Virus record (IMG/VR): IMGVR_UViG_3300032294_000718
Span: 1 to 25,317 of that record
DNA length: 25,317 bases
Reading direction: 5' to 3' (one strand)
Origin: a virus
In this document: positions 888 through 21,149 of the stretch, piece by piece
Position numbering within the stretch: position 1 is the stretch's first letter
Layout of the letters: each line of letters opens with the position of its first letter
Translations under genes and position numbers: made by a program
The notes under the pieces: generated by a model
What the model was told of the DNA's origin: nothing
The model's input: only the letters and a program-made list of their open reading frames with translations
Database searches by the model: none

Positions 888-3230
888 ATGGCAGAAAGAA
901 TCGTATCACCTGGCGTATTCACAAGAGAAAATGACCTATCCTTCTTAGCGCAAGGAATTGGAGAAATTGGAGCAGCATTCATAGGACCTTTTAAGCAAGG
1001 ACCTGCATTCGTTCCAACTATTGTGAGAACACAATCAGAGTTCGAAAGTATTTTCGGAACACCTGATGGGACTTATTATACTGAATATGCAGTACAAAAC
1101 TATTTAAGAGAAGCTGGAATAGCAACAATCGTAAGAGTGGGTGGAATTGGTGGATACCAACAAACTGCACCTTTAGGAATTTTTGCAAGTGGTTCTGCTG
1201 GATTAGGTAGAAAACTAATTGGTGTACTACACTCAACAAAAAATGGATTTCAAAATTACGGATTTCAGGGAGCAACTGTAGTTAGTAATGATGCATTAGA
1301 TGGACAGTTTGTAGTATCTGCAAGTGGTATCGGAATTATATCAGCATCTATATTACCATCAGACCCTAATGATTTAGGTGATGTATTTGGGGAATCTCCA
1401 CTTGGTAGTAAAGCAGCTTATGTATATAATTACTTTGAAAATTTAGCATCTAATTATTCAGGTTCTGCAACTGGTTCTATTGCACATAATACTGTAATAA
1501 CTGGTTCTATATTACCAACGCAAGACTTTACAGAAGATGCTAAAGCAGCTGAAACTCCATTTGTTCAATCACAATTAATTAGTGGTGATAGATATAATCT
1601 TTTCAAATTTGTAACTTTAGGACATGGTACATTATATAATACTAAATTTAAAGTTGGTATTTCTAATGTAAAAGCAGCTGGTGAAGATGGTGGTACTGAT
1701 TATTCTACATTTACTGTGACAATCCGTTCATTTGATGATACCGATAAGAGAAAGAGTGTTGTTGAAACATATAACAATGTAAACTTAGACCCTGCTTCTC
1801 CTAACTATATTGCTAGAAGAATTGGTGATAGATATTTCACAATTGGTTTAGATGGTAAAATGACAGAATTTGGTGATTATACAAACAAATCACAATATGT
1901 TAGAGTTGAAATGGCACCTAATAGTGTAGCAAATCCAATTTCAGCAGCACCATTTGGACATGCACCATATTCACTTCCAATTGAAACAACAAACAATGCA
2001 GAATCACTTTTAGTTCCTGCTGTAACATACCAAACAAATTCAACTGGAAACACATCATCATCTCCAATCTATTTTAGTGGATTTGATTTTGAAACATCTG
2101 GTATCAAAATAGATAACTTAAATTATTTAAAACCAATACCAACACACACAATATTAACGGAAAATGGTTCTAACGTATCATTCGCATTTGATGCAAATGG
2201 TTTAAATTACCAAATGACTGGTTCGGTTTCATCTGATATGGTTAAGAGACAATTCGTATTAGGATTCCAACATGGATTTGATGGTATGAATCCAACTATA
2301 CCAATATTAAAAGCTGGTGATAATGGATGGGGTGCTGGAAATACACAAGGATTCAATTGTTCTACATCAGTATCAGCTGGTTCGGTTGCATATACTAAAG
2401 CAATTGCAGCAATTTCAAATCCTGACGAGTATGATATCAATATGGTAGCAACTCCTGGTATTGTAAGAAGTTTACATCCAGCTATTGTTACTAGAGTAAT
2501 TGATATGGTTGAAGAAAGACAAGATGCATTCTATATCGCTGATTTCAACGATTATTCAGATACAATAACTCAAGCAACCGAACAAGCTAACGCAGTTGAT
2601 TCAAACTATGTTGGTACTTACTATCCTTGGGTTAAAACAATTGATACAAATACTAACAAACTTACAACTGTTCCACCATCTACATTGTTACCAGCGGTTT
2701 ACGCTAGTAACGATAGATTGGCAGCTGAATGGTTCGCACCTGCTGGTTTAAATAGAGGTGGTATCGTAGGAGCAGTTAGTGTATTGAATAGATTAACACA
2801 TGCGGAGAGAGACACTCTATATGAGAACAAAGTAAACCCAATCGCAGCATTCCCTGGACAAGGTATTGTAGCATTTGGACAGAAGACATTGCAAGATAAG
2901 GCTTCAGCATTAGATAGAATCAACGTAAGAAGATTACTTATCACTGTTAAGAAGTTTATCGCTTCTACATCTCGTTTCTTAGTATTCGAACAAAATACTT
3001 CAGAGACAAGAGGAAGATTCTTGAACACTGTTAATCCGTATTTGGAAACAATTCAACAAAGACAAGGTTTATACGCATTCAAAGTGGTGATGGATGAAAC
3101 CAACAACACACCGGATGTAATAGATAGAAATATTATGGCGGGACAAATTTTCTTACAACCGGCTAAGACAGCTGAATTCATCGTAATTGATTTCAACATC
3201 TTACCAACTGGAGCAAGTTTCTCAGCATAA
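888..3230 (+). CDS. Contractile tail sheath protein (T4 gp18-like)
   Basis: This 780-residue protein has the two hallmarks of phage tail sheath proteins. The N-terminal segment (about residues 1-90, starting MAERIVSPGVFTRENDLS) resembles the sheath N-terminal arm followed by the GAAFIGPFKQGPA and IVRTQSEFESIFG region. The C-terminal domain (about 640-780) contains the RLLITVKKFIASTSRFLVFEQN and NIMAGQIFLQPAKTAEFIVIDF type strands that form the conserved core. The middle (about 100-520) is the variable surface region. The sheath polymerises around the tube and contracts to drive it through the host envelope. It is longer than T4 gp18 (about 660 aa), the excess lying in the surface domains. A GGAG ribosome-binding site lies at 877-880, seven bases before the ATG. 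The tube gene follows, the usual order. Certainty is high. Confidence 0.95.
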   Translation: MAERIVSPGVFTRENDLSFLAQGIGEIGAAFIGPFKQGPAFVPTIVRTQSEFESIFGTPDGTYYTEYAVQNYLREAGIATIVRVGGIGGYQQTAPLGIFASGSAGLGRKLIGVLHSTKNGFQNYGFQGATVVSNDALDGQFVVSASGIGIISASILPSDPNDLGDVFGESPLGSKAAYVYNYFENLASNYSGSATGSIAHNTVITGSILPTQDFTEDAKAAETPFVQSQLISGDRYNLFKFVTLGHGTLYNTKFKVGISNVKAAGEDGGTDYSTFTVTIRSFDDTDKRKSVVETYNNVNLDPASPNYIARRIGDRYFTIGLDGKMTEFGDYTNKSQYVRVEMAPNSVANPISAAPFGHAPYSLPIETTNNAESLLVPAVTYQTNSTGNTSSSPIYFSGFDFETSGIKIDNLNYLKPIPTHTILTENGSNVSFAFDANGLNYQMTGSVSSDMVKRQFVLGFQHGFDGMNPTIPILKAGDNGWGAGNTQGFNCSTSVSAGSVAYTKAIAAISNPDEYDINMVATPGIVRSLHPAIVTRVIDMVEERQDAFYIADFNDYSDTITQATEQANAVDSNYVGTYYPWVKTIDTNTNKLTTVPPSTLLPAVYASNDRLAAEWFAPAGLNRGGIVGAVSVLNRLTHAERDTLYENKVNPIAAFPGQGIVAFGQKTLQDKASALDRINVRRLLITVKKFIASTSRFLVFEQNTSETRGRFLNTVNPYLETIQQRQGLYAFKVVMDETNNTPDVIDRNIMAGQIFLQPAKTAEFIVIDFNILPTGASFSA

Positions 3231-3251
3231 TACAAAAACAAACAAATTAGA

Positions 3252-3259
3252 TATTTATA
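3252..3259 (+). promoter_or_regulatory. TATTTATA late-type promoter box before tail tube
   Basis: ATATTTATAA 21 bases before the tube start, in the 50-base gap after the sheath gene. No hairpin separates the two genes, so the tube can be read both from the sheath transcript and from its own promoter, which would favour high expression of this major protein. Confidence 0.5.
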
Positions 3260-3280
3260 ATTAAATAAAAGGGCAATAAA

Positions 3281-3778
3281 ATGGCAGATATTCTATCCTT
3301 CGATAAGATGTTCTATACGAACTTCGAACCAAAAATGAAAAACCGTTACATAATGGAGTTGACTGATACGTCAATCCCATCATTTACGGTAAGTGCGGCT
3401 AACCGCCCAACAATTCAATTTGAAACTGTAAAAATAGACCACATCAACGTTTATAGAAAATTGAAAGGTAAAGGTGAATGGCAGGACTTGGAAATTACTT
3501 TGTATGACCCAATCGTACCATCAGCAGCTCAAGCAGTAATGGAGTGGGTTCGTTTATCACATGAATCTATCACTGGTAGAGATGGATATGCAGAAATGTA
3601 TAAAAAAGATATCGATTTTTACCTATTAGGGCCTGTTGGTGATAAGATTGAACAATGGAAGTTGAAAGGTGCATTTATCTCTCAAGCAAACTTTGGAGAT
3701 TTAGCATATAGTACAACTAACGAACCTGTGACAATCACATTAACATTAACTTACGATTACGCAATCTTAGAATTCTAA
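3281..3778 (+). CDS. Tail tube protein (T4 gp19-like)
   Basis: This 165-residue protein has the length (T4 gp19 is 163 aa) and pattern of T4-type tail tube proteins. It starts MADILSFDKMFYTNFEPKMKNRY, has a central IQFETVKIDHINVYRKLKGKGEWQDLEITLYDP stretch typical of the tube beta-barrel, and ends in strands rich in T, I and V (VTITLTLTYDYAILEF). The tube is the rigid inner channel through which DNA passes. Its position directly after the sheath and before the tail chaperone and tape measure genes is canonical. It has its own late box and is followed by a strong hairpin pair (3787-3839), which would uncouple this abundant product from the downstream, less needed chaperone. Confidence 0.95.
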   Translation: MADILSFDKMFYTNFEPKMKNRYIMELTDTSIPSFTVSAANRPTIQFETVKIDHINVYRKLKGKGEWQDLEITLYDPIVPSAAQAVMEWVRLSHESITGRDGYAEMYKKDIDFYLLGPVGDKIEQWKLKGAFISQANFGDLAYSTTNEPVTITLTLTYDYAILEF

Positions 3779-3786
3779 AAAATATT

Positions 3787-3807
3787 CCTTACGGATGCTA
3801 CCGAAGG
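3787..3807 (+). other. Small hairpin just upstream of terminator
   Basis: CCTT/AAGG plus CGG/CCG around loop ATGCTA with one bulged A. It stands directly between the tube stop codon and the terminator stem, where it could protect the mRNA 3' end or aid termination. Role inferred from position. Confidence 0.4.
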
Positions 3808-3809
3808 AC

Positions 3810-3839
3810 AACCCTCATCAGAAATGGTGGGGGTTTTTT
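3810..3839 (+). terminator. Rho-independent terminator after tail tube
   Basis: Arms 3810-3820 and 3825-3835 form an 11-bp stem (two G-U pairs) capped by a GAAA loop and followed by a run of T. This is one of the clearest terminators in the window and closes the sheath-tube unit. Confidence 0.85.
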
Positions 3840-3863
3840 ATTTCCAATTTTTTAAAAATTATG

Positions 3864-3871
3864 TATTTATA
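3864..3871 (+). promoter_or_regulatory. TATTTATA late-type promoter box before the gp26-like gene
   Basis: GTATTTATATATAC context, 26 bases before the start codon at 3898 and just after the 3810-3839 terminator, so it is needed to express the downstream genes. It is the only copy with G rather than A before the octamer. Confidence 0.5.
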
Positions 3872-3872
3872 T

Positions 3873-3888
3873 ATACAAACTTAAAATA
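3873..3888 (+). repeat. Leader element ATACAAACTTAAAATA, copy 2
   Basis: Identical to 855-870. Here it begins two bases after the TATTTATA box and ends nine bases before the start codon. Confidence 0.6.
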
Positions 3889-3897
3889 AATAAAGTT

Positions 3898-4659
3898 ATG
3901 AACGAAAAGCAATATGATTTTCCAACGGAAGTGTTGGATTTACCATCGGAAGGTAAGGTTTATCCAAAAGATAACCCACTATCATCTGGCAGGATTACAA
4001 TTAAATTAATGACAGCAAAGGAAGAAGATATTCTTTCTTCTACAAACCTTATCAAAAAAGGTATTGTATTGGATAAACTATTTGAATCTATTATAGTTGA
4101 TAAAGTTAATCCAAATGATATTATAATTGGTGATAAAAACGCAATCCTTTTAGCAACAAGAGTATTAGGTTATGGACCTGAATACGATTTTACTTTTTAT
4201 TCATCTAAAAAAAGTGATACTGTTGAAATAAAAGCAGATTTAACACAGGTTAAAACCAAAGAAATTGATATATCACTTTTTGACAATAAAAATGAATTAG
4301 AGTATATAACACCAACTGGAAAAAACAAAATTGTGTTTAAATTATTAACTCATGGTGATGAAAGAGAAATAGAAAAAGAAGTAGAGGCACTTAAAAAATT
4401 AAATAAAGATTTATCATCAGATGTTACAACTCGTTTAAGATATATGATTAAATCAGTTGATGGAAATTCTGAAGTGGGTACTATTGCGAGATTTGTCAAT
4501 AATATGAGAGCATTGGATAGTAGAGCATTTAGAGAATATGTTAAAAAGGTCTCTCCTGATATGGATATGAAAGTACAATATACTCATACTGATGGTGAGG
4601 TGGAGGAGGCGCCTATCTCTTTGGGAGTGAACTTTTTTTGGCCTACCACCGAATCATAG
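3898..4659 (+). CDS. T4 gp26-like baseplate/tail assembly chaperone, zero-frame product
   Basis: The 253-residue product begins with a VLDLPSEGKVYPKDNPL stretch, then ITIKLMTAKEEDILSS and IKKGIVLDKLFESII, the pattern of the T4 base-plate (gp26) family, in which a short N-terminal 'LPSxGxxY' strand precedes a mixed alpha/beta body. The gene sits between the tube and tape measure genes, the position of tail assembly chaperones (lambda G/GT). These bind the tape measure before tube polymerisation and are absent from the virion. The zero-frame reading ends abruptly in FFWPTTES just after a run of seven T (4633-4639). A second frame continues from there (see 4640-4849) with sequence that looks like the natural end of the family. 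The protein may therefore be made in short and long forms. Confidence 0.85.
   Translation: MNEKQYDFPTEVLDLPSEGKVYPKDNPLSSGRITIKLMTAKEEDILSSTNLIKKGIVLDKLFESIIVDKVNPNDIIIGDKNAILLATRVLGYGPEYDFTFYSSKKSDTVEIKADLTQVKTKEIDISLFDNKNELEYITPTGKNKIVFKLLTHGDEREIEKEVEALKKLNKDLSSDVTTRLRYMIKSVDGNSEVGTIARFVNNMRALDSRAFREYVKKVSPDMDMKVQYTHTDGEVEEAPISLGVNFFWPTTES
4633..4640 (+). promoter_or_regulatory. Candidate ribosomal slippery site (seven T then G)
   Basis: In the zero frame the codons are AAC TTT TTT TGG. A Phe-tRNA in the P site on 4636-4638 can slip +1 and re-pair perfectly on 4637-4639, with a Trp codon waiting in the A site; the next codon is then GGC at 4640 in the frame that stays open to 4849. A -2 slip gives the same frame. 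The frame is not reached by a -1 slip. Alternatively the run of T is a one-base variant or sequencing change. Confidence 0.55.
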
Positions 4660-4849
4660 TATAAATTTACATACTCAAATTTTTGATATGGTACACTACG
4701 GTAATGGGTTTACTATTATGGAGTTGTACCAAATGCCAACCAGACTAAGAATGTTTTATTATAACAAATTACTTGAAGCAAAGAAAAAAGAAAATGAGGA
4801 AGTAGAAAAAGCAAATAAATCAGCATCAAAAGTTAGGGTTAGACGATAA
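4640..4849 (+). CDS. C-terminal extension of the gp26-like chaperone in the shifted frame
   Basis: Read from 4640 this frame gives 69 residues, beginning GLPPNHSINLHTQIFDMVHY, with a core GFTIMELYQMPTRLRMFYYNKLL and a lysine/glutamate-rich tail ending KVRVRR. The 'YGxGFTxxELYxMPxxLRxFYYxKL' character is what I would expect at the end of T4 base-plate chaperone proteins. It joins smoothly to the zero-frame body if one base is skipped in the T7 run, giving about 316 residues in total. If not reached by frameshift, an internal ATG at 4688 could start a free 53-residue protein, but it has no good ribosome-binding site. The stop codon lies inside the terminator stem at 4828-4862. Confidence 0.65.
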   Translation, partial: GLPPNHSINLHTQIFDMVHYGNGFTIMELYQMPTRLRMFYYNKLLEAKKKENEEVEKANKSASKVRVRR

Positions 4850-4862
4850 TCCTAACTTTTTT
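4828..4862 (+). terminator. Terminator overlapping the end of the frameshifted ORF
   Basis: AAAAGTTAGG (4828-4837) pairs perfectly with CCTAACTTTT (4851-4860) across a 13-base loop that contains the stop codon at 4847-4849; a T run follows. It is placed just before two TATTTATA boxes that restart transcription. Confidence 0.7.
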
Positions 4863-4880
4863 ATTTATAAGATATTTATA
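4862..4880 (+). promoter_or_regulatory. Two TATTTATA late-type boxes before the 4901 / tape measure unit
   Basis: The octamer occurs at 4862-4869 and again at 4873-4880, eleven bases apart. The second has the more usual ATATTTATAG context and lies 20 bases before the start codon at 4901. The doubling may give two start sites, or the first may be fortuitous within the terminator tail. Confidence 0.5.
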
Positions 4881-4900
4881 GATGTTAAACTATATTAATT

Positions 4901-5143
4901 ATGAAAAAATACAAAATATCGGAATCTAATTTAAAGGAATTTTGGAATCTATTTAGTAAAAAGCCAACTCCCGATAAATTACAAACAGTAATTGATAATG
5001 ACCCTGTACTAAAAAAACTTCAAGATGAATTGGATGATATCGATAGAAGCTATATTCCAAAACTTAGAAAAATGAAGCAAGAACAACCACGTACATTTGA
5101 GTATCTACAAAGTATAGGTATGATAGCAAAAGATTTTAAGTAA
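4901..5143 (+). CDS. Small basic/acidic helical protein preceding the tape measure (80 aa)
   Basis: I do not recognise this 80-residue protein. It starts MKKYKISESNLKEFW and is highly charged, with a predicted helical pattern (VLKKLQDELDDIDRSYIPKLRKMKQEQ) suggestive of a short coiled coil. It has no signal peptide or membrane segment. It lies eight bases before the tape measure gene and shares its transcript, so a partner of the tape measure, a second chaperone or a small internal protein are candidates. The N-terminal LKE could be read as part of a T4-type L-x-E processing site, but this is weak. Confidence 0.7.
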   Translation: MKKYKISESNLKEFWNLFSKKPTPDKLQTVIDNDPVLKKLQDELDDIDRSYIPKLRKMKQEQPRTFEYLQSIGMIAKDFK

Positions 5144-5151
5144 TATCATAA

Positions 5152-7548
5152 ATGGCAGACATTACCTCACTTACACCAGAACAGCAAAAAGAACTAAACT
5201 CTTTATTAAAAGAAAGAGAAAGGTTAGAGAAGCAAATTACATCAAACGTTGAAAAGGCTGCTAATGCACGTCATAATGAAAAAAAGCGTTTAGATGAGCT
5301 TATAAAGAAAGGTGACGAGGAACTTGACATAATGGAGAAAAAAATTAAAAATCTCCAAAAAATCAAAGATGCTGAGACTTATCAACTTAGTATTGGTAAG
5401 GCTTTGAATGTAAAAGATGAAAAAATATTAAAACTTATTGAAGGTAAAGTTACTAAAAGTAGTTTATTATCATCCGTAACTGCAAAGATTATATCACTAA
5501 AGAGTGAAGAAATAAATTTAGAGGGTGATGCATTAAAAGCAAGTGAGCAAAAAAGAGAAGTTTTTGAATCTTTAGCTAAAGGTGTAGTTGACCAAGCTAA
5601 ACACATGGCTCATCATGGTAAAGAAGTAAATAAATATGAAGAAGAAAGACATAAGTTATTAGAAAAAATAAAAGATTTTAGTGAAGAAGAAAAGGAAGAC
5701 GCACTCAAACTTTTACAAATAAAACAAAATCTACAAAAACAAGAAGAAAGAATACATGAGTTACAACACAAAGTAGCACATGAGGCCCATCACTTACCAG
5801 AAGGTATAAGAAATGCAGCATCGGGTGCAATGGATTTATTTAAATCTGTTAAAAATGCTGGTATGGCATTTGGTCCATTGATATTATTAGTAGCAGCTTT
5901 AGGTGCTGGATTGCATGCTTATATGGAATTAGATGCGGCAGCAGAAAAATATAGAGAAACTACTGGTTTTACTGCTGCAATGACTAAAAAAATAGATTAT
6001 GATGTACATCATATTGTAGTGGCATATAGAGGATTGGGTGTTGAGGCTAAAGATGCATACGATGTTATAAACGAAATGGCAAATGCTCAAAGTGATATGT
6101 TTCACTTTAGTGAAGCTACTGTTGGTTCACTTTCAATTCTAAATAAAAGGATGGGTATTGCTGTAAAAGATAGTGCAGAAGTATCATCCATGTTTGAACA
6201 AATTGGAGGATTGAGTGAAGAAACTGCTGCTAGTGTAACACTAGCCGCTGCATCTTTGGCTAAACAAACAGGCGTATCCGCAAAAGAAATGTTTCAGGAT
6301 ATGGCAAAGAGCTCTGGTGTATTATCCTCACACATGAAGGGTAATGTTCAGATGTTTATCCAACAAGCCGTTAAAGCTAAAATGCTTGGAAGTACTCTTG
6401 AAGATATGGCCAAAACTTCAGAAAAACTATTAGATTTTGAAAGTAGTATTGAGGAAGAATTAACGGCAGCAACTTTTGTAGGAGGGCAATTTAATTTAAG
6501 TAGAGCTAGAGCACTTGCGTATGAAGGAAAAATTGCAGATGCAAATGATGAAATATTAAATCAAATTCAAAGAAGTGGTGATTTCCGAAAGCAAGATTAT
6601 TATACACAACAACAATTAGCAAAAGCAGCGGGAAAATCAGTTGAAGAAATTGTAAAAGAATTGGGTGTTAGAGATAAATTGGGAAAGTTAAGTGGAGACC
6701 AATTAGCAAAAGCAAATAAGCTAATAGATAGTGGAGTAGATATAAGTAATTTAAGTGATGACGAACTCAAAAAGCAAGCAGAACAATTAGCAAAACAAGA
6801 AAGAATATCAGCAGTAATGACAGATATTCAAGATAAAATAGCAGGAATGGTTGAGGCCGTAGGTGGTAGGCTTACTCCTGTATTTGATGTATTAGCAAAG
6901 GTAGTGTATTTTATATCAGATGTACTTAGTGGTATTGCAAATATTATTACAACTATATTCAGTCCAACAGAATCATTTGGTAAACTATTTGAAAAAATGG
7001 GTCCTTGGGTTTCTGGTATTGCTACCGCATTAACAATAGCTGGTACTGCCATAATGGCTCAAATGGTTCCGGGATTGATAAGAGCTGGTATGGCAGCAGC
7101 AGCTCAATTACCAGCTATGATTTCAATGGCAGTAGCGGCGATAACATCCGCATCAGCTGCAACTTTAGGTATTGGGGCAGTTGCGATTGTGGGTGGTATA
7201 GCAGCTGCTGTAATGGCAATGAAATCCGCACAAAAAGTAGGAGATGTCATGGCACCTGCTGATGGTAAAACTAGGATATCTACAAAAGAAGGTGGATTAC
7301 TTGAATTATCAAAAAATGATGATTTAATTGCCGCACCTGGCGCAGCAAGTGCTCTTTCTGGTGGGCAATCATCTCCAATAGCATCATCAAATAATAATAT
7401 GATTAATGCATTGATAAACGAATTTAGAGGAGTTAGAGCAGATATGGCCGGTGGTAAAATTGGAGTTTATATGGATAATGATAAGGTTTCATCAAAAGTG
7501 GCTACAACAATGGACCGTAGTACTAGAAATAATTTTGCACTACAATAA
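5152..7548 (+). CDS. Tail tape measure protein
   Basis: At 798 residues this is the long, coiled-coil-rich, membrane-segment-containing protein expected directly after the chaperone genes. Residues about 10-215 are almost continuous charged heptad-like helix (many K and E). Residues about 236-258 form a hydrophobic segment (AGMAFGPLILLVAALGAGLHA). A central alpha-helical region follows, then a second long Ala/Gly/Ile-rich hydrophobic region at about 619-693. Tape measure proteins set tail length and are ejected ahead of the DNA, and the hydrophobic parts may help form a channel in the host inner membrane. With the usual rule of about 1.5 angstrom per residue the tail would be near 120 nm; this is an estimate. 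It heads a nearly gapless run of five genes to 13554. Confidence 0.9.
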   Translation: MADITSLTPEQQKELNSLLKERERLEKQITSNVEKAANARHNEKKRLDELIKKGDEELDIMEKKIKNLQKIKDAETYQLSIGKALNVKDEKILKLIEGKVTKSSLLSSVTAKIISLKSEEINLEGDALKASEQKREVFESLAKGVVDQAKHMAHHGKEVNKYEEERHKLLEKIKDFSEEEKEDALKLLQIKQNLQKQEERIHELQHKVAHEAHHLPEGIRNAASGAMDLFKSVKNAGMAFGPLILLVAALGAGLHAYMELDAAAEKYRETTGFTAAMTKKIDYDVHHIVVAYRGLGVEAKDAYDVINEMANAQSDMFHFSEATVGSLSILNKRMGIAVKDSAEVSSMFEQIGGLSEETAASVTLAAASLAKQTGVSAKEMFQDMAKSSGVLSSHMKGNVQMFIQQAVKAKMLGSTLEDMAKTSEKLLDFESSIEEELTAATFVGGQFNLSRARALAYEGKIADANDEILNQIQRSGDFRKQDYYTQQQLAKAAGKSVEEIVKELGVRDKLGKLSGDQLAKANKLIDSGVDISNLSDDELKKQAEQLAKQERISAVMTDIQDKIAGMVEAVGGRLTPVFDVLAKVVYFISDVLSGIANIITTIFSPTESFGKLFEKMGPWVSGIATALTIAGTAIMAQMVPGLIRAGMAAAAQLPAMISMAVAAITSASAATLGIGAVAIVGGIAAAVMAMKSAQKVGDVMAPADGKTRISTKEGGLLELSKNDDLIAAPGAASALSGGQSSPIASSNNNMINALINEFRGVRADMAGGKIGVYMDNDKVSSKVATTMDRSTRNNFALQ

Positions 7549-7559
7549 AAAATAATTAG

Positions 7560-9716
7560 ATGCCAACTTTAGAAGAATTATTTAGAAACAAAAAATACGA
7601 TAGACTTGGGGATAGGACTCCACAAGAAGCATTTGCGGTAAGAAATAGTAAAGATATTCAGATATCAACAATAAGTCCTTTACTTAATGCTACATCCGTT
7701 CAACTTATAAATAAAGTAAGATTAGGTACAAATTCTGAAAGATTTAGGGAAACTAGAGTTGAAAGCGAATTGGTTGGATTACTTCCATTTGCTAACTTTT
7801 CATCAGCCGTATTATATGGTACTGATATTTTAAGAATCTCATCTCAAAATACATCATTGGGAGAAGCTATGAAAGCTGGGACTGGTGGTAGGGGATTGGT
7901 AGCAACTGCTGCTAGAGTAGTAGGTGATACTGTTGGTGAGGCGGTACAATTTGGTGGTTCTCGATTATTAAAAGTACCATCAACGTTTAATGCAAAAACA
8001 GCAATTACAAAAGCTGGAGCAGCTATAAAAAATACATTAGGTTCTTTATTTCCGGATGTATTAATACCATCTAAAATTGTTGCAAGTCCTGTATTTACTG
8101 CTAAAGTTCCTGGGTTTAATGAAGAATATAGGATTCATGAGAATTTAGCAAATTTAAAAAACTTTTCAGCTGGAACTAAGGTAGCATCATTTTTAGCAAA
8201 AAACGCAACTGGAACACCTGACCAAATTAAACAAGCGGTTATTGGACAGGGATTGAATATAGCACAACAACAAACAAAAAGATTTGTATCAAATCAATTA
8301 GTTAAAGTATTATCTAAAGGTGGAGACAAAGCACAGCAAATGGCTAAAGAATTACAACAAAGTCAAGTTGTTTTTCTTAGATGGTCATCTTTAAAAAAAT
8401 ATTCTGATGTTGTAAAAAATGAAAGACAATTTGGAAAACCTCCATTAAATTTTGCTAATCAGGAATATACTAGCGCAGATACATTAATAGATGATAGATT
8501 AGACCTTTCAACTAAATACGCAATAGAATTTAGTGGTGAAGCTGATGAAAAGAAAAGAGGAAAAGCTAGATTTTTAAAAGAAAAAAATCAAGCCGAATCG
8601 AATTATATTGATGGTGAAGCTAATGGTGTTTGGAAATATTCATCAGTTCCAAGAACAAAATCTAGAACAAAGTATGGCCTATATGAAAGACGAGATGTTT
8701 TTAATGAAAGAGAGCCATATAACACTGGAACTGATGCTGCTAGTATTAAAAGAGATGAGGAGACTGATAGACTGGATATGATACCATTAAAATTTGTATC
8801 TGTTGGTAACGCATCTGCTGTAAATTTTAGAGGAACTATAACGGGATTGAGTGAGCAATTTTCTCCATCTTGGGATAGTAGTAGATTTATAGGTTCGCCA
8901 TTTAACTTTTATACATATCAAAGTATAGAAAGAACTGTACAATTTTCGTTTAAAGTATTTTCACTTAGTAGCATAGAACATAAAAATAATTGGAGTAAAT
9001 TGGCGTATTTAAGTTCATTATGCTATCCACAGCAATATACAGGTGGAGCTGGTGCTGTTACTGCTCCATTTTTAAAATTTACAATGGGTGATATGTATAG
9101 AGACAGAGAATGTTTTATTGAAAACATGTCTTATAATATAGATGATAACTATCCTTGGGAAATTGGATTAAATCGTAAAGATTTACAAAATTATAGATTA
9201 CCAATGATTGTAGAAGTAACAATTACATTGAAATTTGTTGAAGCAAAATCTAATACACATACCTACGAAATAGGTGAGGATAAGAAATTAAACCCAGTAC
9301 TTTTAGGTAAAAAATTATATAGCTATTCAGATAATTTTTCTGGTGATAAAAGTCAAGAAAATGATAAAAGATTCACATCAACAAATAAACCTGATGTAAG
9401 GCCTGACCCATCAAAACCACAATCTGAAACAAATCAACAAGAACAGGGAGACCCATATCCACAAGATTCAACAAACGAAGCGTTATTTATTCAGAAACAA
9501 TTTAAATTACAAAAAGCTCAAATATTCTACACACCATTAGGACAAACTAAAGCAAGGCAAGTTTATAGACAAAAGAAAACTGGTAAATTGTATTTTGGTG
9601 ATGGTACTCCATATACCGCTCTTGGTTTTAAAAATATTGGACCTGATTTAAGTTTTGTTACTAAAGTGGATGTTGTGGCTAATCCATTTACTCCTAATAT
9701 AGATAATATAGCATAA
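7560..9716 (+). CDS. Large baseplate/tail structural protein (718 aa)
   Basis: The N-terminal part (about 1-390) is rich in Ala, Lys and Gln with little recognisable motif. The C-terminal half contains a compact strand-rich domain (about 418-565) with the pattern 'FRGTITGLSEQFSPSWDSSRFIGSP', 'YTYQSIERTVQFSFKV' and 'SSIEHKNNWSKLAYLSSLCYPQQY', ending 'DDNYPWEIG' and 'LPMIVEVTITLKFV'. I associate this pattern with baseplate or tube-initiator-type proteins next to the tape measure in several contractile phages, though I cannot name the T4 equivalent with confidence (gp48/gp54-like is possible). The tail beyond 590 is low-complexity, rich in Pro, Gln and Asp. It follows the tape measure by 11 bases and is one base from the next gene. 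Confidence 0.75.
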   Translation: MPTLEELFRNKKYDRLGDRTPQEAFAVRNSKDIQISTISPLLNATSVQLINKVRLGTNSERFRETRVESELVGLLPFANFSSAVLYGTDILRISSQNTSLGEAMKAGTGGRGLVATAARVVGDTVGEAVQFGGSRLLKVPSTFNAKTAITKAGAAIKNTLGSLFPDVLIPSKIVASPVFTAKVPGFNEEYRIHENLANLKNFSAGTKVASFLAKNATGTPDQIKQAVIGQGLNIAQQQTKRFVSNQLVKVLSKGGDKAQQMAKELQQSQVVFLRWSSLKKYSDVVKNERQFGKPPLNFANQEYTSADTLIDDRLDLSTKYAIEFSGEADEKKRGKARFLKEKNQAESNYIDGEANGVWKYSSVPRTKSRTKYGLYERRDVFNEREPYNTGTDAASIKRDEETDRLDMIPLKFVSVGNASAVNFRGTITGLSEQFSPSWDSSRFIGSPFNFYTYQSIERTVQFSFKVFSLSSIEHKNNWSKLAYLSSLCYPQQYTGGAGAVTAPFLKFTMGDMYRDRECFIENMSYNIDDNYPWEIGLNRKDLQNYRLPMIVEVTITLKFVEAKSNTHTYEIGEDKKLNPVLLGKKLYSYSDNFSGDKSQENDKRFTSTNKPDVRPDPSKPQSETNQQEQGDPYPQDSTNEALFIQKQFKLQKAQIFYTPLGQTKARQVYRQKKTGKLYFGDGTPYTALGFKNIGPDLSFVTKVDVVANPFTPNIDNIA

Positions 9717-9717
9717 T

Positions 9718-10011
9718 ATGAGAAGTAGATACGAAAGAAATAGTACTAAAATAACTAAAGATGGTAGAGTAGTATATAAAGCTAAACGATATGCAAATAT
9801 ACCATTAAGAGAAACTGATATTTATGTGGCAACCGAAACTGGTGATAGGTTAGATACATTAGCTAATTATTTTTATAATAATTCATCTCTTTGGTGGATA
9901 ATAGCAACTGCTAATAATATACATGATGCTAAATTTTCTTTTCCAGATGGAACTATACTTAGAATACCAATACAATATATAGAAATTGTGAATAATGAAA
10001 ATCAAATATAA
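9718..10011 (+). CDS. LysM / tail protein X-like baseplate protein (gp53-type)
   Basis: A 97-residue protein whose central part, TGDRLDTLANYFYNNSSLWWIIATANN, has the classic small LysM-type fold pattern seen in phage baseplate proteins (T4 gp53 and P2 tail protein X): a Gly-Asp start, Leu-xx-Ile/Leu-Ala, an aromatic pair, then Trp-Trp-xx-Ala-xx-Asn. It ends in a 'PDGTILRIPI' strand, also typical. In baseplates this domain bridges the hub and wedge or contacts the tube; peptidoglycan binding is not implied. It is positioned between two large baseplate genes with one- and two-base gaps, so translational coupling is likely. Confidence 0.8.
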   Translation: MRSRYERNSTKITKDGRVVYKAKRYANIPLRETDIYVATETGDRLDTLANYFYNNSSLWWIIATANNIHDAKFSFPDGTILRIPIQYIEIVNNENQI

Positions 10012-10013
10012 AA

Positions 10014-13000
10014 ATGTTTCCAAAACTTACAAATATAGAACCTATCATTTCGGCAAGCATAAAGTCTAACGATACCATTCAAGCATCTAAATTAAATTGT
10101 TTTGTTAGAATTATATCTGGTGTGGGAACGGGATTGATTATGACTTCAAATCCTGACTGGAAACTTTTTAGTGCTGCTGGTTTTAGTGAACCTACATTTT
10201 ATGGAGATTCGGCTGGTAGTGGTACAATTGGGGTTAGTTGGACAGGAAAACCTGTATATGCAGCTCAGCAATCAATGGGGCAAGATGTTCCTTTTAAACC
10301 ATCACCAATAGTAACAGCTATAAATGTTAAAGAAGGTAAAGACCAGATATCAAGACATTGTGACCTAAAAATAACAGCATATACAATCGCTCAAGTTGAA
10401 GTATTACAAACTTATATGATGGAACCCGGTTTTTCTCTTTTTATAGAATATGGTTGGAATACCAATTTAGGAGTGAGTGGATTGATACCAATAAAATATA
10501 ATACTATTGTATCTGATGCTGGTAAATATAGTTTAGACCAAATTAGCTTACATAAAAAAAGAGTAGATACACATGGGGAATATGATTCATTTTTAGGATT
10601 TATAGTTGGAGGTACTGTTACATCAAATGGAGATTTATTTGACATTAATATAAAACTAAGAGGGGCACCTGGACTACCAACATATTTACAATCTCAAGCC
10701 AGTATAGAAGAAATAGTAGACGGAAAAGTTAGTAACAAATATTCAGTTACACCATTTGGAGTTACTGAATTGAATTTAGAGGCAGCTGAGCAAATGGCTG
10801 AAAGACGTTTTAAACAAATGTTTAATGATTTACCAAAAACAAGACAAACCACATTTGTTAGAGATTTGATTGGTAATAATGGTAAATTTAGTAATTTGGA
10901 TTTTATAAATTTCGATCCTGTTATTCAAGTACAAATATCGAATTTTGCAGAAGGTAGAGATGCATCTGGTGCAGAACTCCCTAAAGATGAACCAATAGTT
11001 CCTAAGAATGCAGGTAATACTGCAAAAGAAGTTGAAGAAGCGGGTGGACTTAATCCTAAAAAATTGCAAGAAATTGCTGAAGCAATAATTCAAAAACAAG
11101 CTGGGTTTAAGGATGTAGCAACACCACCCACAGTAGTTACAGGTGGTTTTTTTACAATAGATACAGCTTGGGAAAATTATTTACAAAGTAAACAAAGTGC
11201 AGGGGACCCTATAACAAGGGCGGAAATTGATGCAGCTATAGCAAAATACATAGATGTAAAATCTACTAATTTTACAGATGGAGTAGGTGGTACTGTTAAA
11301 GGATATTCATATACAAAAAAACCAGAACCACCACCGCCAGCCGCAACCAACACAGCAGCAAGCACTTCAGGAGCCGCAGGTACTTCCGGAACTGCAGGTG
11401 CTTCAACGGCTCAACAAACTGGAGGGGGTGGTACTGCACGAGTAGAGGCAGTTGCTGCAACTGAAATTAAATTAGCCGGTGGCTTGGTTCTTCCAAAAGA
11501 AAAATTATTTTCAAAAAATAGATATGTTAGATTTGGAAAAGCAGTAGATATAATAAATACAAATTCCGGAATACAATCATATATAGTAGCTGGTAGAAGT
11601 GTAAATGCTATTCTTAACGTAAAAAATACACCAATAGGTGCATTTAAGGGTATATATTCAACCAAACCTGAAACATTAGTAATACCTGGATTAATTCCTG
11701 ATTTTACTAAATTTTTTATGGAACAAAATTTAGCAAATTTAAGTGATAATGAACCGTTAGTTGATTTATCAATAGGACCATTATCATTTGCACAATCCAC
11801 GGCATTAAATTCCGGTGGATTTAAAGAAAACGCTTATTATTGGGGAAAATTGGAAAATTTATATATCAATTTTGAATTGCTTAAAAAAGAATTAGATACT
11901 CCAAATAAAACAATTCGTGAAATTTTAGAATCTCTACTAAACGAAATGAGTTCAGCTGTTGATGCATTTTGGAATTTTCAAATAGTTGAGAAAAGTGAAG
12001 CAGTTAAAGATAACACAGGTACAGAAAGAAACACTTTAATTTATACTGTAGTTGATGAAAATTGGATAGGAGCAAACCCAAATCCAGCTCCTGTAAAATT
12101 TACACATAGTGGTGAACAATCTAGATTTTTAGATGCGGATTTGAATATAGATATTCCGGGTTCGATGGCAAGTCAAATTGTATCAAAAAGATTATCATTA
12201 TCTGTGAATCCATCACAACCAAATTTAGAATTGGGTGGAATTTTTTCAAAAGGAGTGGACCAATTTTTAAAAGCATATATAGATGCAGGTTCAGCATCAA
12301 CGGGTACAACAACTACGAATACAACTACCACAACTACAACAACGGCAACAAGTGAAGATGATAAAAAATTAGAAGAAAGATTTAATAAAATTCCAAAAGG
12401 AACACTAACGGATGCACAGCAAAAAGAGATGCAAACACTAAAAGATGCACAAAACGCTAATAGTAAAGCAGCAACAGATTTAGATGCTGAGAAGGCTAGA
12501 TTAAAAGGGTTGGAATCCACACGTGACTCAAGATATAGAGCTCAAGCAGCTATATTAGATAAATATGATGGGACACGTGGTACGGATTTCGATGTTGATG
12601 GTGATGAAATAGATGACCCTAAACAAGCTGCAATTGAAAGAAAAAAATTAGAAGATATTGATAAAGAAATAGCTGCTTTAAAAAAGAAAGTAAATGACGG
12701 TAGTGCTGCTATAAAAACCAAAGAGGATGAAATTAACAAATCTGTGGAAGATTTTGAAAAAGGAGCTAATGAGCAAATTGTAGCAAATATTTCAACAAAT
12801 TTAGATAAAATTGATGTAGTACCCAACCCAGCTGAGAATTCAATAACAGCAACAGATTTAAATAATTTTCTTACTGACCCTGCTTTATTTAAACAAAAAT
12901 TTAGAATATATTGTTGTAGAGATGCTAAATACTTAAATATACTTAAAACGAATGCTATGGGTGTTAAATCTGGAGGTGGTGGTAGATTATCACATCCATT

Positions 13001-13187
13001 ACCTATAAAATATTCATTTACAATTTTAGGAAAAAGTGGTATTAGGAGAGGAGATACGTTTAATATAGATGGAATACCTAAAAAATATGAGCAAAATGGG
13101 TTATTCCAAGTTACAGAAATTGAACAAACTATTCAAAATATGAAATGGACAACTAGAGTTCAAGGGGAATATAGACAACAGCAATAA
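10014..13187 (+). CDS. Very large baseplate hub protein with low-complexity linkers and coiled coil
   Basis: This 1057-residue protein appears to be a hub protein split by insertions. N-terminal residues 1-250 contain strand-rich sequence with 'MEPGFSLFIEYGWN' and 'SFLGFIVGGTVTSNGDLFDINIKLRGAP', typical of gp27-like hub barrels. Residues about 437-478 are a Pro/Ala/Thr/Gly linker. A second folded region (about 490-755) follows. A near-pure Thr linker at about 763-778 comes next, then a charged coiled coil (about 785-930). The C-terminal domain ends 'IRRGDTFNIDGIPKKY', 'FQVTEIEQTIQNMKWTTRVQGEYR', the usual closing strands of hub proteins of the gp27 / late-control-D type. T4 gp27 is about 390 residues, so this is far larger than usual. 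The hub joins tube, baseplate and spike. The assignment to hub is good; internal domain limits are approximate. Confidence 0.8.
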   Translation: MFPKLTNIEPIISASIKSNDTIQASKLNCFVRIISGVGTGLIMTSNPDWKLFSAAGFSEPTFYGDSAGSGTIGVSWTGKPVYAAQQSMGQDVPFKPSPIVTAINVKEGKDQISRHCDLKITAYTIAQVEVLQTYMMEPGFSLFIEYGWNTNLGVSGLIPIKYNTIVSDAGKYSLDQISLHKKRVDTHGEYDSFLGFIVGGTVTSNGDLFDINIKLRGAPGLPTYLQSQASIEEIVDGKVSNKYSVTPFGVTELNLEAAEQMAERRFKQMFNDLPKTRQTTFVRDLIGNNGKFSNLDFINFDPVIQVQISNFAEGRDASGAELPKDEPIVPKNAGNTAKEVEEAGGLNPKKLQEIAEAIIQKQAGFKDVATPPTVVTGGFFTIDTAWENYLQSKQSAGDPITRAEIDAAIAKYIDVKSTNFTDGVGGTVKGYSYTKKPEPPPPAATNTAASTSGAAGTSGTAGASTAQQTGGGGTARVEAVAATEIKLAGGLVLPKEKLFSKNRYVRFGKAVDIINTNSGIQSYIVAGRSVNAILNVKNTPIGAFKGIYSTKPETLVIPGLIPDFTKFFMEQNLANLSDNEPLVDLSIGPLSFAQSTALNSGGFKENAYYWGKLENLYINFELLKKELDTPNKTIREILESLLNEMSSAVDAFWNFQIVEKSEAVKDNTGTERNTLIYTVVDENWIGANPNPAPVKFTHSGEQSRFLDADLNIDIPGSMASQIVSKRLSLSVNPSQPNLELGGIFSKGVDQFLKAYIDAGSASTGTTTTNTTTTTTTTATSEDDKKLEERFNKIPKGTLTDAQQKEMQTLKDAQNANSKAATDLDAEKARLKGLESTRDSRYRAQAAILDKYDGTRGTDFDVDGDEIDDPKQAAIERKKLEDIDKEIAALKKKVNDGSAAIKTKEDEINKSVEDFEKGANEQIVANISTNLDKIDVVPNPAENSITATDLNNFLTDPALFKQKFRIYCCRDAKYLNILKTNAMGVKSGGGGRLSHPLPIKYSFTILGKSGIRRGDTFNIDGIPKKYEQNGLFQVTEIEQTIQNMKWTTRVQGEYRQQQ
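11364..11399 (+). repeat. Two imperfect 18-base tandem repeats in hub linker
   Basis: ACTTCAGGAGCCGCAGGT is followed directly by ACTTCCGGAACTGCAGGT (four differences), coding for the related hexapeptides TSGAAG and TSGTAG. They lie in the Pro/Ala-rich linker and suggest growth of the linker by tandem duplication. Confidence 0.7.
12304..12352 (+). repeat. Threonine-codon microsatellite in hub gene
   Basis: A run of ACA/ACT/ACC/ACG codons broken only by single Asn and Ala codons, coding for a poly-Thr linker before the coiled coil. Mixed codons argue for selection on the Thr run, though it may still change in length by slippage. Confidence 0.7.
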
Positions 13188-13188
13188 T

Positions 13189-13554
13189 ATGGGAGTTAGT
13201 GCAATAGAATATAATGATTTAATAAAAGAACAGGGAAAATCTTTAATACAACCACATACAATTAGAACCCATGTTCCATATCCAACTGCCGATGATTATC
13301 GGAGGGGGTATATTGTTAGATATTTTATACAAATGATTAATGATGATAATGCACTTATATATGAGGTAAACGCAACTGATTATGCAAAATTTTCATTAGA
13401 TGTTTTATACAACACAGTTAATATAGATTGGAGATTGACTGGTAATTTGGAAAATATAAAATTATCAAACGGAAAATCAGTAAAATTGGGTTCTAAAAAA
13501 ATGAAAAATTTAATTTTCTATTTAGTAAATTATTTACAATTTAGTGGATATTAA
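13189..13554 (+). CDS. Small tail-module protein of unknown function (121 aa)
   Basis: I do not recognise a named family. The middle of the protein, 'YPTADDYRRGYIVRYFIQMINDD', followed by an IYEV strand and 'VNIDWRLTGNLEN', looks like a conserved small protein that recurs beside baseplate genes in T4-like phages of environmental origin. It has no signal peptide or membrane segment. It starts one base after the hub gene stop and closes the tail operon; its TAA stop is directly followed by the -33 element of the tmRNA promoter. A small baseplate or tail-completion role is likely from context only. Confidence 0.7.
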   Translation: MGVSAIEYNDLIKEQGKSLIQPHTIRTHVPYPTADDYRRGYIVRYFIQMINDDNALIYEVNATDYAKFSLDVLYNTVNIDWRLTGNLENIKLSNGKSVKLGSKKMKNLIFYLVNYLQFSGY

Positions 13555-13586
13555 TTTGGTGGTTTAATTATTTTTTCGTATATTTG
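13555..13586 (+). promoter_or_regulatory. Bacteroidota-type promoter of the tmRNA
   Basis: TTTG (13555-13558), 20-base spacer, TATATTTG (13579-13586). This matches the -33 TTTG / -7 TAnnTTTG consensus of the primary sigma factor in Bacteroidota. The start site should fall near 13591, giving a short 5' leader that RNase P would remove at 13600. The -33 element begins immediately after the stop codon of the preceding gene. Confidence 0.75.
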
Positions 13587-13599
13587 TATTTATCAATAT

Positions 13600-13985
13600 G
13601 GGGGTGACTCGGAATTGATTACAATGAGAAGTATAGTATTACATGTAGTGGGATGGCTCTCCAACCACTTTAATCTCGGAATCAACAAATAAACGCAGAA
13701 GAATTATCTTCATTCACCTTCGAAGATGCTATGGCATTCGTAGGTGCTGATTACGCTGTAGCAGCCTAATCAAACTCGGGTCGGTGCACATACAACCTAG
13801 GAACAGAAGTGTTTACAAAGGCTTTATTCGTTGGGCCCAAATCAACGAATTGGTGGAATCGCTGAACTAACCATTCGGCCCCAATTATTTTGGAAAGTGA
13901 ATAAGATTAAACTTTATCCTAAACATGTGACACGTTGGTATTATGGTTACTTTGTAAGACATGGGTTCGAATCCCATCACCTCCA
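13600..13985 (+). ncRNA. ssrA: Phage-encoded transfer-messenger RNA (tmRNA)
   Basis: tmRNA rescues stalled ribosomes by acting first as an alanine tRNA and then as a short mRNA that tags the nascent peptide for proteolysis. The acceptor stem is GGGGGTG (13600-13606) with CACCTCC (13978-13984), including a G-U at the third pair (G3-U70), the identity signal for alanyl-tRNA synthetase. The discriminator is A13985. The T arm is ATGGG-TTCGAAT-CCCAT. P2 contains TTACAA (13619-13624) with TTGTAA (13952-13957) and the conserved ACATGT (13641-13646) with ACATGT (13923-13928). A pseudoknot-like hairpin AGTGG/CCACT precedes the tag. Downstream, ATTCGTTG/CAACGAAT (13826-13833/13843-13850) with GGCC loop pairing to 13877-13880 gives another pseudoknot. 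The genomic 3' sequence after the discriminator is CGA, so CCA must be added after transcription. Length is about 386 nt, normal for one-piece tmRNA. Confidence 0.93.
13695..13769 (+). other. tmRNA proteolysis-tag reading frame (24 codons plus stop)
   Basis: The resume codon is taken as GCA at 13695, because the preceding AAATAAAC matches the A-rich single strand and the UAGUC-like motif that stands before GCA in E. coli tmRNA. The tag then begins AEELSSFTFED, continues AMAFV and ends GADYAVAA with a TAA stop. The hydrophobic Ala-Ala terminus is the expected ClpXP-type degron. At 24 residues it is longer than most bacterial tags (commonly 8-15). The exact resume codon is inferred; upstream codons in the same frame are also sense codons. 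Confidence 0.75.
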
Positions 13986-13989
13986 CGAC

Positions 13990-14027
13990 AATCCCGAACT
14001 ATTATTTGGTAGTTTGGGATTTTTTTT
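13990..14027 (+). terminator. Terminator of the tmRNA gene
   Basis: AATCCCGAACTA (13990-14001) pairs with TAGTTTGGGATT (14010-14021) over 12 positions (one G-U) around the loop TTATTTGG, followed by a long T run. The loop also carries the TTTG element of the next promoter. Confidence 0.9.
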
Positions 14028-14036
14028 GTATCTTTG
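14005..14036 (+). promoter_or_regulatory. Bacteroidota-type promoter of the polymerase gene, embedded in the tmRNA terminator
   Basis: TTTG (14005-14008, in the terminator loop), 20-base spacer, TATCTTTG (14029-14036). The start codon of the polymerase at 14042 is only five bases after the -7 element, so the transcript would be leaderless or nearly so. Confidence 0.65.
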
Positions 14037-15364: not shown

Positions 15365-15967
15365 ATGAAAAAAATCAGTATCCTTATCGGTTTCCTACTC
15401 CTTTCGTTAATTTCGTTTGGACAAGATGTTAGAATTAAAAACGAAGTATTTGAAGTTCTTTATTCCCAATCATTAGAACAACCCTTAGTAATTAAGTATC
15501 GTTCAACAAATAGACCTACAAATGTGAATAGAGGGGCTATGGATTTTTACAAAGAACCAAACATTAAAACATCGGATGCGGATGATTACGCTAAAAATAT
15601 ATACGATAAAGGACATGGTGCACCGGCTGCAACATTCTCTGATAATATGGTAAATCTAAAACAAACATTCTCATACTTAAATTGTATAATGCAAGACCAA
15701 TACCTTAATAGAGGTGAGTGGAGATTGTTAGAAGAACAAATCCGTAAATGGGATGATACTGAAAATATAACTGTACTAATAAAAACATTCTTTGATACAC
15801 CTGTAAAAAGAGTTCCAACTGGAGCTGCAATTCCTTCTCATTTACAAAAACATATCTATTTTGAAAAAAGTAACAAATGGAGATGTTTTGTATTTCTAAA
15901 TCAAAAACCAAAATTTCATTGGGATGAATTAGAAATGATATGTGAAGCTGAAGACCACAAATTTTAA
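15365..15967 (+). CDS. Exported DNA/RNA non-specific endonuclease (NUC1 family)
   Basis: The protein has 200 residues. Residues 1-20 (MKKISILIGFLLLSLISFGQ) form a clear Sec signal peptide: a lysine start, a hydrophobic core and a Bacteroidota-type end. The mature part has the hallmark DKGHGAPAA (Asp81-Ala89) with the general base His84, equivalent to the DRGH of Serratia nuclease but with Lys for Arg. It also has the metal-ligand motif LNRGEWRLLE, with Asn115 and Glu123 eight residues apart, as in Serratia nuclease (Asn119, Glu127). The family cleaves DNA and RNA using one Mg ion held by the Asn. Length is short but sufficient for the core fold. Export would place it in the periplasm or outside. 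The stop overlaps the next start by one base, so the two are translationally coupled. Confidence 0.85.
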   Translation: MKKISILIGFLLLSLISFGQDVRIKNEVFEVLYSQSLEQPLVIKYRSTNRPTNVNRGAMDFYKEPNIKTSDADDYAKNIYDKGHGAPAATFSDNMVNLKQTFSYLNCIMQDQYLNRGEWRLLEEQIRKWDDTENITVLIKTFFDTPVKRVPTGAAIPSHLQKHIYFEKSNKWRCFVFLNQKPKFHWDELEMICEAEDHKF

Positions 15968-20747: not shown

Positions 20748-21149
20748 ATGTTTACACCAAATCATTTACATTTACTTGTAAAAGGATACATAAAAACCCC
20801 ACCGCAAACCGAAAACGTATTAAACGAATGGTTTAGACAATTAGTTACTAAGGTAGGAATGAAAGTGGTAGCAGGACCTACATCGGTTTATGTGAATGAA
20901 CCTGGAAACGAAGGAATAACTGGAACGGTAACATTAGCAACATCACATTCCAGTATTCATGTTTGGGATAACCAAAATCCAGCTATGTTTCAATTTGATT
21001 TATATAGTTGTTCGGATTTTACACCAACACAAGTATTAGACCACATTGATGAATGGTTTGAATTAAATGAAGCCTATTGGCAATTTATAGATAGAAACGG
21101 AAGTACCTTTGAATTAGTAAATTCTGGGCATTTCACAAAAAACAAATAA
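20748..21149 (+). CDS. SpeD-like protein (S-adenosylmethionine decarboxylase family)
   Basis: This 133-residue protein has the compact pattern of prokaryotic class 1B AdoMet decarboxylase: an N-terminal strand (HLHLLVKGYI), then TSHSSIHVW (residues 65-73), then FQFDLYSCSDFTPTQVLDHI (about 81-100). By pattern, Ser66 matches the serine that becomes the pyruvoyl group (Ser63 in the Thermotoga enzyme), His71 matches His68 and Cys88 matches Cys83; spacing differs by a two-residue insertion. The residue before the serine is Thr, where the family normally has Glu, so self-cleavage is uncertain. The family makes decarboxylated AdoMet for spermidine synthesis, and phage relatives are known; some homologues may use other amino acids. 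It lies between an unknown gene and the endolysin. Assignment to the family is good; activity is not established. Confidence 0.72.
   Translation: MFTPNHLHLLVKGYIKTPPQTENVLNEWFRQLVTKVGMKVVAGPTSVYVNEPGNEGITGTVTLATSHSSIHVWDNQNPAMFQFDLYSCSDFTPTQVLDHIDEWFELNEAYWQFIDRNGSTFELVNSGHFTKNK

Follow-up and report, generated by a model that had tools for sequence, protein, structure and literature searches.

Phage tmRNAs are usually viewed as supplements to the tmRNA of the host cell. A 25,317-nt stretch of viral DNA (hereafter the window), a fragment deposited as a 25.3-kb IMG/VR virus contig, raises the question of whether a tailed phage carries a complete, working tmRNA gene and, if so, whether the peptide tag it encodes is the one that bacteria use. 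A survey of 18,146 phage genomes recorded tmRNAs in 402 of them (PMC9004378), and phage tmRNAs are also known from mycobacteriophages and phage G (PMC4131195), from huge phages, there also together with SmpB (PMC7162821), and from Cellulophaga phages (PMC8776804).

An earlier note, made from the letters alone, had proposed that both halves of a complete one-piece tmRNA lie here, with acceptor stem, T arm and P2, and had named Rfam and ARAGORN searches as the check; both searches agree with it. ARAGORN called a single tmRNA in the window, with the tag AEELSSFTFEDAMAFVGADYAVAA followed directly by stop, so that the frame ends in Ala-Ala-stop as had been read by eye (Table 1). The only Rfam family matched in the window was RF00023, which aligned to 13600-13988 over its full length (model positions 1-374 of 374) with 82.1 bits (E 1.1e-30), above its gathering score of 47. 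The tRNA-like domain consists of a 7-bp acceptor stem with G3-U70 and a T arm, with no anticodon arm; both helices are 100% paired in 32 sequences, and the acceptor G-U is invariant. The gene-encoded end (CCACGA) lacks a 3' CCA, and 13600-13985 corresponds to the RNA minus its CCA. The GCA resume codon, with UA at -5/-4, opens a frame ending in small hydrophobic residues (AVAA-stop), and P2 and four pseudoknots are present.

Table 1. Positions of the tmRNA gene, its structural elements and its neighbors in the window
Feature	Positions	Strand	Basis and remarks
One-piece tmRNA gene (ssrA)	13600..13986	+	ARAGORN; Rfam RF00023, 82.1 bits
Acceptor stem, 5' strand GGGGGUG	13600..13606	+	Pairs with 13978-13984; G3-U70 is 13602 with 13982
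P2, 5' strands 13619-13624, 13633-13640, 13641-13646	13619..13646	+	Pair with 13952-13957, 13937-13944, 13923-13928
PK1	13647..13683	+	Stem 1 13647-13651/13665-13669; stem 2 13655-13660/13678-13683; by eye, alignments A2, A3
UA at -5/-4 before resume codon	13690..13691	+	A invariant; U in nearly all relatives
Tag frame, resume codon GCA, AEELSSFTFEDAMAFVGADYAVAA, TAA 13767-13769	13695..13769	+	ARAGORN; protein-level constraint
In-tag hairpin A (GAAGA-AUUA-UCUUC)	13698..13711	+	97-100% paired, compensatory changes
In-tag hairpin B (P5-like), entirely within frame	13716..13745	+	79% of cells paired, four pairs with two-sided changes
In-tag hairpin C, over ADYAVAA codons	13746..13765	+	90-94% of cells paired, mostly invariant
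PK2 region, GCAC 13786-13789 with GUGU 13809-13812	13775..13815	+	Covaries in main-type relatives; window type by eye
PK3, GGCU 13820-13823 with GGCC 13834-13837; UUCGUUG 13827-13833 with CAACGAA 13843-13849	13820..13849	+	Covarying helices
PK4, UGGU 13851-13854 with ACCA 13870-13873; GCUGAA 13861-13866 with UUCGGC 13874-13879	13851..13879	+	99-100% of cells paired, AU/UA exchanges
T arm AUGGG-UUCGAAU-CCCAU	13961..13977	+	100% paired; two-sided changes in all five pairs
Acceptor 3' strand CACCUCC and discriminator A	13978..13985	+	Sequence; followed by CGA
Tail gene block (sheath, tube, baseplate, large structural ORFs)	888..13554	+	PHROG, Pfam; upstream of tmRNA
Bacteroidota-type promoter, -33 TTTG 13555-13558, -7 TATATTTG 13579-13586	13555..13586	+	Sequence, relatives
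Intrinsic terminator (AATCCCGAACTA...TAGTTTGGGATT and T run)	13990..14028	+	Sequence; similar hairpin in most relatives
Next-gene promoter, TTTG 14005-14008, TATCTTTG 14029-14036	14005..14036	+	Sequence
DNA polymerase (family A, phage type)	14042..15325	+	PHROG 17, E 8e-14; syntenic tmRNA neighbor

Comparative alignments indicate that this fold is maintained. P2, including the ACATGT/ACATGT match singled out in the earlier note (13641-13646/13923-13928), is kept through compensatory changes in 31 relatives, with 84-94% of cells paired. Across 32 aligned tmRNAs, 87% of cells in the acceptor stem, T arm, P2, PK1 stem 1 and in-tag hairpins are paired, compared to 38-50% in sliding controls, and two-sided changes occur in 22 of 61 pairs (shuffled mean 13.4, with no shuffle out of 500 reaching 22). 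Among 22 closer relatives, PK2-PK4 and in-tag hairpin A are paired in 93% of cells, with two-sided changes in 18 of 36 pairs; no shuffle of 500 reached this number, and while related sequences can beat such shuffles without structure, sliding controls here were only 34-40% paired. The segments suspected of forming pseudoknots thus resolve into four, of which PK2-PK4 are backed by covariation and PK1 is recognized by eye only. PK1 stem 2 contains one mismatch in the window sequence, and the family carries PK1 as two alternative, unrelated alleles. These alleles, along with PK2/PK3 modules that are swapped among otherwise similar RNAs, suggest recombination among phages. Two relatives (L009 and L031, with tmRNAs of 433 and 422 nt) bear an insertion of ~40-50 nt between PK2 and PK3. 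As judged from its sequence, the tmRNA is real, complete, conserved and very probably functional.

The gene sits between a block of tail genes and a DNA polymerase gene whose homolog in Flavobacterium phage immuto is annotated as DNA polymerase family A; family hits elsewhere on the contig include an endolysin, a gp32-like protein and UvsX/RecA. Among annotated phages, the best matches of the sheath were Microcystis phage Mel-JY01, LR756508 (a 484-kb uncultured phage) and Flavobacterium phages 'immuto', and the polymerase matched these phages only. No INPHARED phage showed full-length DNA similarity at the tmRNA gene. Shine-Dalgarno sites precede two of 17 window ORFs and one of 24 in the Flavobacterium phage, and the few informatively named relatives in bacterial genomes belong to Flavobacteriales, Flavobacteriaceae and Flammeovirgaceae MAGs. 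Consistent with the earlier proposal of a tailed phage probably infecting Bacteroidota, the T4-like tail genes indicate a T4-like myovirus, and the promoter type, the scarcity of Shine-Dalgarno sites and the Flavobacterium relatives point to a probable Bacteroidota host. Since the window-wide excess of promoter-like sequences is modest and is not seen in immuto (see below), the main grounds for this host are the promoter next to the tmRNA, the few Shine-Dalgarno sites and the relatives. Mel-JY01 (L162), the closest annotated sheath relative, has Shine-Dalgarno cores at nine of 23 ORFs, unlike the window. Directly after the polymerase gene, the window encodes a DNA/RNA non-specific endonuclease (15365-15967; Pfam Endonuclease_NS, E 2e-20); a 1427-aa ORF with no Pfam match (15967-20250) lies between it and later genes, which include an S-adenosylmethionine decarboxylase-like ORF (20748-21149; Pfam AdoMet_dc, E 3e-13), possibly a phage polyamine gene.

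A search with the polymerase ORF yielded 80 loci, four on contigs that begin inside the polymerase gene, leaving 76 that are informative. ARAGORN found a tmRNA at 65 of the 80 and a profile added nine, three of them cut by contig ends, such that 74 of the 76 informative IMG/VR relatives carry one. In most it lies directly upstream of the polymerase gene, and in some at least one gene intervenes. No tmRNA was found within the 22.5-kb contig of the close relative L003 (polymerase 90% identical) or in the distant L081. When polymerase identity falls below 50%, only L204 has a tmRNA beside the polymerase; the distant phage G177 carries one of the same tag type inside a tRNA array. Three large relatives (188-274 kb) encode 22-26 tRNAs each, with the tmRNA tens of kilobases away from them.

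The earlier note had also assigned the gene its own promoter and terminator, and both withstand comparison. A promoter-like TTTG-N20-TATATTTG directly precedes the gene; the strict pattern is found at 15 of 23 loci, and the remaining eight, compared by eye, depart from it only in spacing or at the final base of the -7 box. With slightly wider spacing, the pattern occurs four times on the + strand of the window versus 0.8 expected, and the window as a whole shows a modest excess (7 versus 2.2 expected); we looked for such an excess in Flavobacterium phage immuto and did not see it. Downstream lies a hairpin with a T run; the promoter of the following gene has its -33 box inside this hairpin. 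These elements support the prediction that the phage tmRNA is an independently transcribed gene.

tmRNA genes often serve as integration sites (PMC11915505, PMC9004378), and a phage could in principle have recently captured a host copy through imprecise excision or transduction. We regard this origin as extremely improbable. In a full-length tree the phage tmRNAs form their own clade apart from sampled Bacteroidota chromosomal tmRNAs (support 0.98), the gene occupies a genomic position common to dozens of phages, and no integrase was found among the window ORFs with a family hit in PHROG or Pfam. The same observations, with the completeness of the gene, led us to reject an integration remnant, in keeping with the earlier argument that the gene is not left over from integration: dozens of phage contigs carry it in the same position.

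What sets the phage RNA apart is its tag. The window tag has 24 residues, and all members of the long-tag phage family, assessed by eye and by script, encode 23-26. By comparison, tags of 70 Bacteroidota chromosomal tmRNAs are almost all 9-10 aa, with two long values that look like wrong ARAGORN frames, and 10 aa is the commonest length in the tmRNA database (PMC11915505). The phage tag is therefore about two and a half times the bacterial length, with ~15 aa extra. Its family pattern is x-x-E-[LIM]-S-[ST]-[WMF]-[TNS]-[FYW]-[EDG]-D-x-M-x-[FW]-x-G-A-(x)-[DE]-[YL]-A-x-A-A, from which a few members deviate (e.g., S for the second D, or E/N-S for G-A); among 31 aligned long tags the last two residues, A-A, are invariant, as are E3, S5 and M13. 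A degenerate version of the core F-[ED]-D-[AV]-M-A-F-V-G-A was present in 93 IMG/VR stretches. All except two cut by contig ends continue into a short tag end, which is A-A-stop in all but one (M-A-stop). The core did not occur in 395 Bacteroidota genomes. Because its tag is longer than bacterial ones and conserved among related viruses, the virus seems to have a way of its own of labeling incomplete proteins. The RNA clade also includes a phage (G182, L342) with a similar body and a short, host-like tag, GVNNYALAA; given this phage, and the absence of the gene from L003, neither gene nor extension is indispensable. ARAGORN sets wrong tags (VNKPEHYLSAP, EQPQLYLSAV) in L002, L005, L041, L045 and others, whose true tags end in AVAA, and annotation by ARAGORN alone is thus a pitfall in this family.

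The location of the stop codon offers a clue to how such a tag arose. Several of the host tmRNAs that we checked have a post-tag hairpin (P5) that starts within the final codons of the tag and extends across the stop codon. Members of the phage family have a similar hairpin in frame, with the stop codon downstream of it. Most simply, the reading frame would have been extended across P5, and the new end would have reacquired a YAVAA-type signal. This geometry invites the objection that the extension is kept only for the RNA hairpins it encodes, as a relocated P5. In that case the added amino acids would do nothing as peptide, and the tail would function as an ordinary host tag does. In favor of that view, three in-tag hairpins keep their pairing, two with compensatory changes, and where P5 spans the stop, read-through alone would lengthen the tag. 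However, pairing alone should yield no codon-position bias, and such a bias is evident. On a parsimony tree built from the non-tag part, changes at codon positions 1/2/3 number 34/31/95 in the whole tag and 30/25/70 in the extension, defined as codons 2-18 (p = 4.6e-7); when the tree is built from the tag sequence instead, the entire tag shows 22/21/72. As the RNAs recombine, a single tree overestimates such counts, but to the same extent at each codon position. Noncoding flanks divided into arbitrary triplets are flat (5', 74/70/79; 3', 184/152/177). Within the extension, position 3 accumulates the most changes per site among paired bases (4.7 versus 1.5) and is also highest among the few unpaired sites (3.3 versus 2.8 and 1.4).

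This bias, which holds within paired and unpaired bases alike, indicates that the extension is conserved as protein as well as RNA. The hairpins account for part of its conservation; that they account for all of it is unlikely in light of the codon-position pattern, which is lacking off-frame, and of the invariant E3, S5 and M13. The gene, its structure, its conservation and the protein-level selection on its extension are established by computation, and the phage tag is unusual in being long, phage-specific and under such selection, a peculiarity that had escaped the earlier note. That the locus is a working phage tmRNA and carries a selected long tag is, as a single claim, highly likely.

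Which partners the RNA would use bears on what it does. SmpB was found in none of 25 related records and in two of 16 additional records of the family (G439 and G448, the two being identical at the locus), leaving 39 of 41 without it; records may be fragments, as the 25-kb window is, so SmpB may lie outside those examined. We considered phage-encoded ClpP as a partner and rejected it, as none was present in 13 records. With SmpB missing from most records and ClpP from 13, host SmpB, AlaRS and proteases are the likely partners. The rarity of SmpB could also suit an RNA whose main effect is to compete with host tmRNA or serve as its decoy, tying up SmpB rather than tagging proteins, and mycobacteriophage DS6A, with its reduced, tRNA-like tmRNA, provides a precedent (PMC4131195). 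A decoy, though, needs no tag frame, resume signals or pseudoknots, all of which are kept here, nor a tag under protein-level selection, and G439 and G448 carry SmpB plus the same tag type; we find this role quite improbable. On these two contigs SmpB, encoded at 45458-45868 (L444/L445; 146 bits), accompanies a tmRNA with the tag NDNKSTMTFEDAMAFVGAGEVLMAA, so that both parts of trans-translation occur together in a phage.

The earlier note had offered three possible roles, namely rescue of ribosomes on damaged mRNA, a substitute for host rescue, and the tagging of host proteins. We favor a tagging RNA that would operate as follows. Transcribed from its own promoter during infection and matured at its ends by host enzymes (RNase P, CCA addition), the RNA would be charged with alanine via G3-U70 and bound, presumably, by host SmpB. 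It would enter ribosomes stalled on truncated or damaged mRNA and free them, adding to the unfinished protein a tail of 25 residues, the tmRNA's own alanine plus 24 coded ones. Tagged proteins would end in ...FEDAMAFVGADYAVAA, with YAVAA as a ClpXP-type end signal. Because the stop codon lies beyond the hairpin that in several host tmRNAs spans it, the tail would also carry the conserved aromatic, acidic and hydrophobic extension E-L-S-[ST]-x-T-F-[ED]-D-x-M-x-F-x-G, unlike the short host tag. There is an even chance that the extension makes the tail a stronger or multi-part degron, through which protein fragments would be removed and both ribosomes and amino acids returned to use while the infection proceeds; the tag thus suggests possible new degron sequences for Bacteroidota. 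A bolder idea, which we advance tentatively, is that a large group of Bacteroidota phages evolved a tag that is dual-coded as RNA hairpin and peptide, rerouting rescued polypeptides to some protease, adaptor or fate other than that to which the host tag leads. If true, phage tmRNAs change the outcome of trans-translation and do not merely top it up. A conserved, host-unlike and protein-selected tag offers a direct handle on what phage tmRNAs do, and a tag swap, or comparison of the short-tag relative (L342) with long-tag phages, could expose the fate of tagged proteins.

How the RNA relates to known tmRNAs clarifies what is new about it. With Bacteroidota chromosomal tmRNAs (RF00023) it shares the one-piece form, G3-U70, P2, four pseudoknots, a tag ending in A-A and, in most, the UA before the resume codon; it differs in its 23-26-aa tag, where hosts have such tags as GENNYALAA, DNNYSYRLAA and ANDYSYAMAA, and in the in-frame position of its P5-like hairpin. 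Other phages, too, have long tags. Mycobacteriophage ET08, used in place of Bxz1 and filed under the same species, has a phage-borne one-piece tmRNA with a 25-aa tag (ATDTDATVTDAEIEAFFAEEAAALV), but the host phylum, tag sequence and C terminus (AALV) are different, and we detected no relation beyond both being tmRNAs. Cellulophaga phage phi38:1 likewise infects Bacteroidota and encodes a 22-aa tag (AQIEANMEAVNAILNLEVAVGV); it is a podovirus, however, and its tag is unrelated and ends in AVGV. Methylophilales phage Melnitz, a myovirus with T4-like genes, carries a complete ssrA for which roles in maintaining translation or tagging host proteins were proposed; that gene is two-piece, permuted and of alphaproteobacterial type, with a glutamine riboswitch (PMC9004378). 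According to work cited in PMC11986505 (its refs 24 and 34), Mycoplasma also has a longer-than-usual tag, with extra residues recognized by another protease. That system is cellular with an unrelated tag sequence, and Lon was shown there to read the tag. On this precedent Lon could be a second protease that reads the phage tag, a step we propose with low confidence. Our literature search, which covered few subscription journals, returned no description of this tag family or of a long phage tag conserved across a lineage. Phage tmRNAs and long phage tags being already known, the new element is a lineage-wide, phage-specific extended tag.

LR756508.1 holds a full tmRNA (92434-92880; L330) whose tag, by eye, is GVNNADYESAGFTAEDFAQMDGESLYHGSERKPAAV (36 aa), with ARAGORN picking another frame. 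If the rerouting proposal is correct, the long tags in the unrelated phages ET08, phi38:1 and LR756508 would be parallel cases. Besides its full tmRNA, LR756508.1 contains a 112-nt candidate tmRNA consisting of the tRNA-like domain only (414804-414915; L333; 58 bits to RF00023), which resembles the tag-less tmRNA of mycobacteriophage DS6A. A Flavobacteriales MAG encodes, besides a normal tmRNA with the tag GENNYALAA, a second one (L253, G027:C23:7011-7352; 112 bits) with the tag ADTSVLALAA, possibly on a mobile element.
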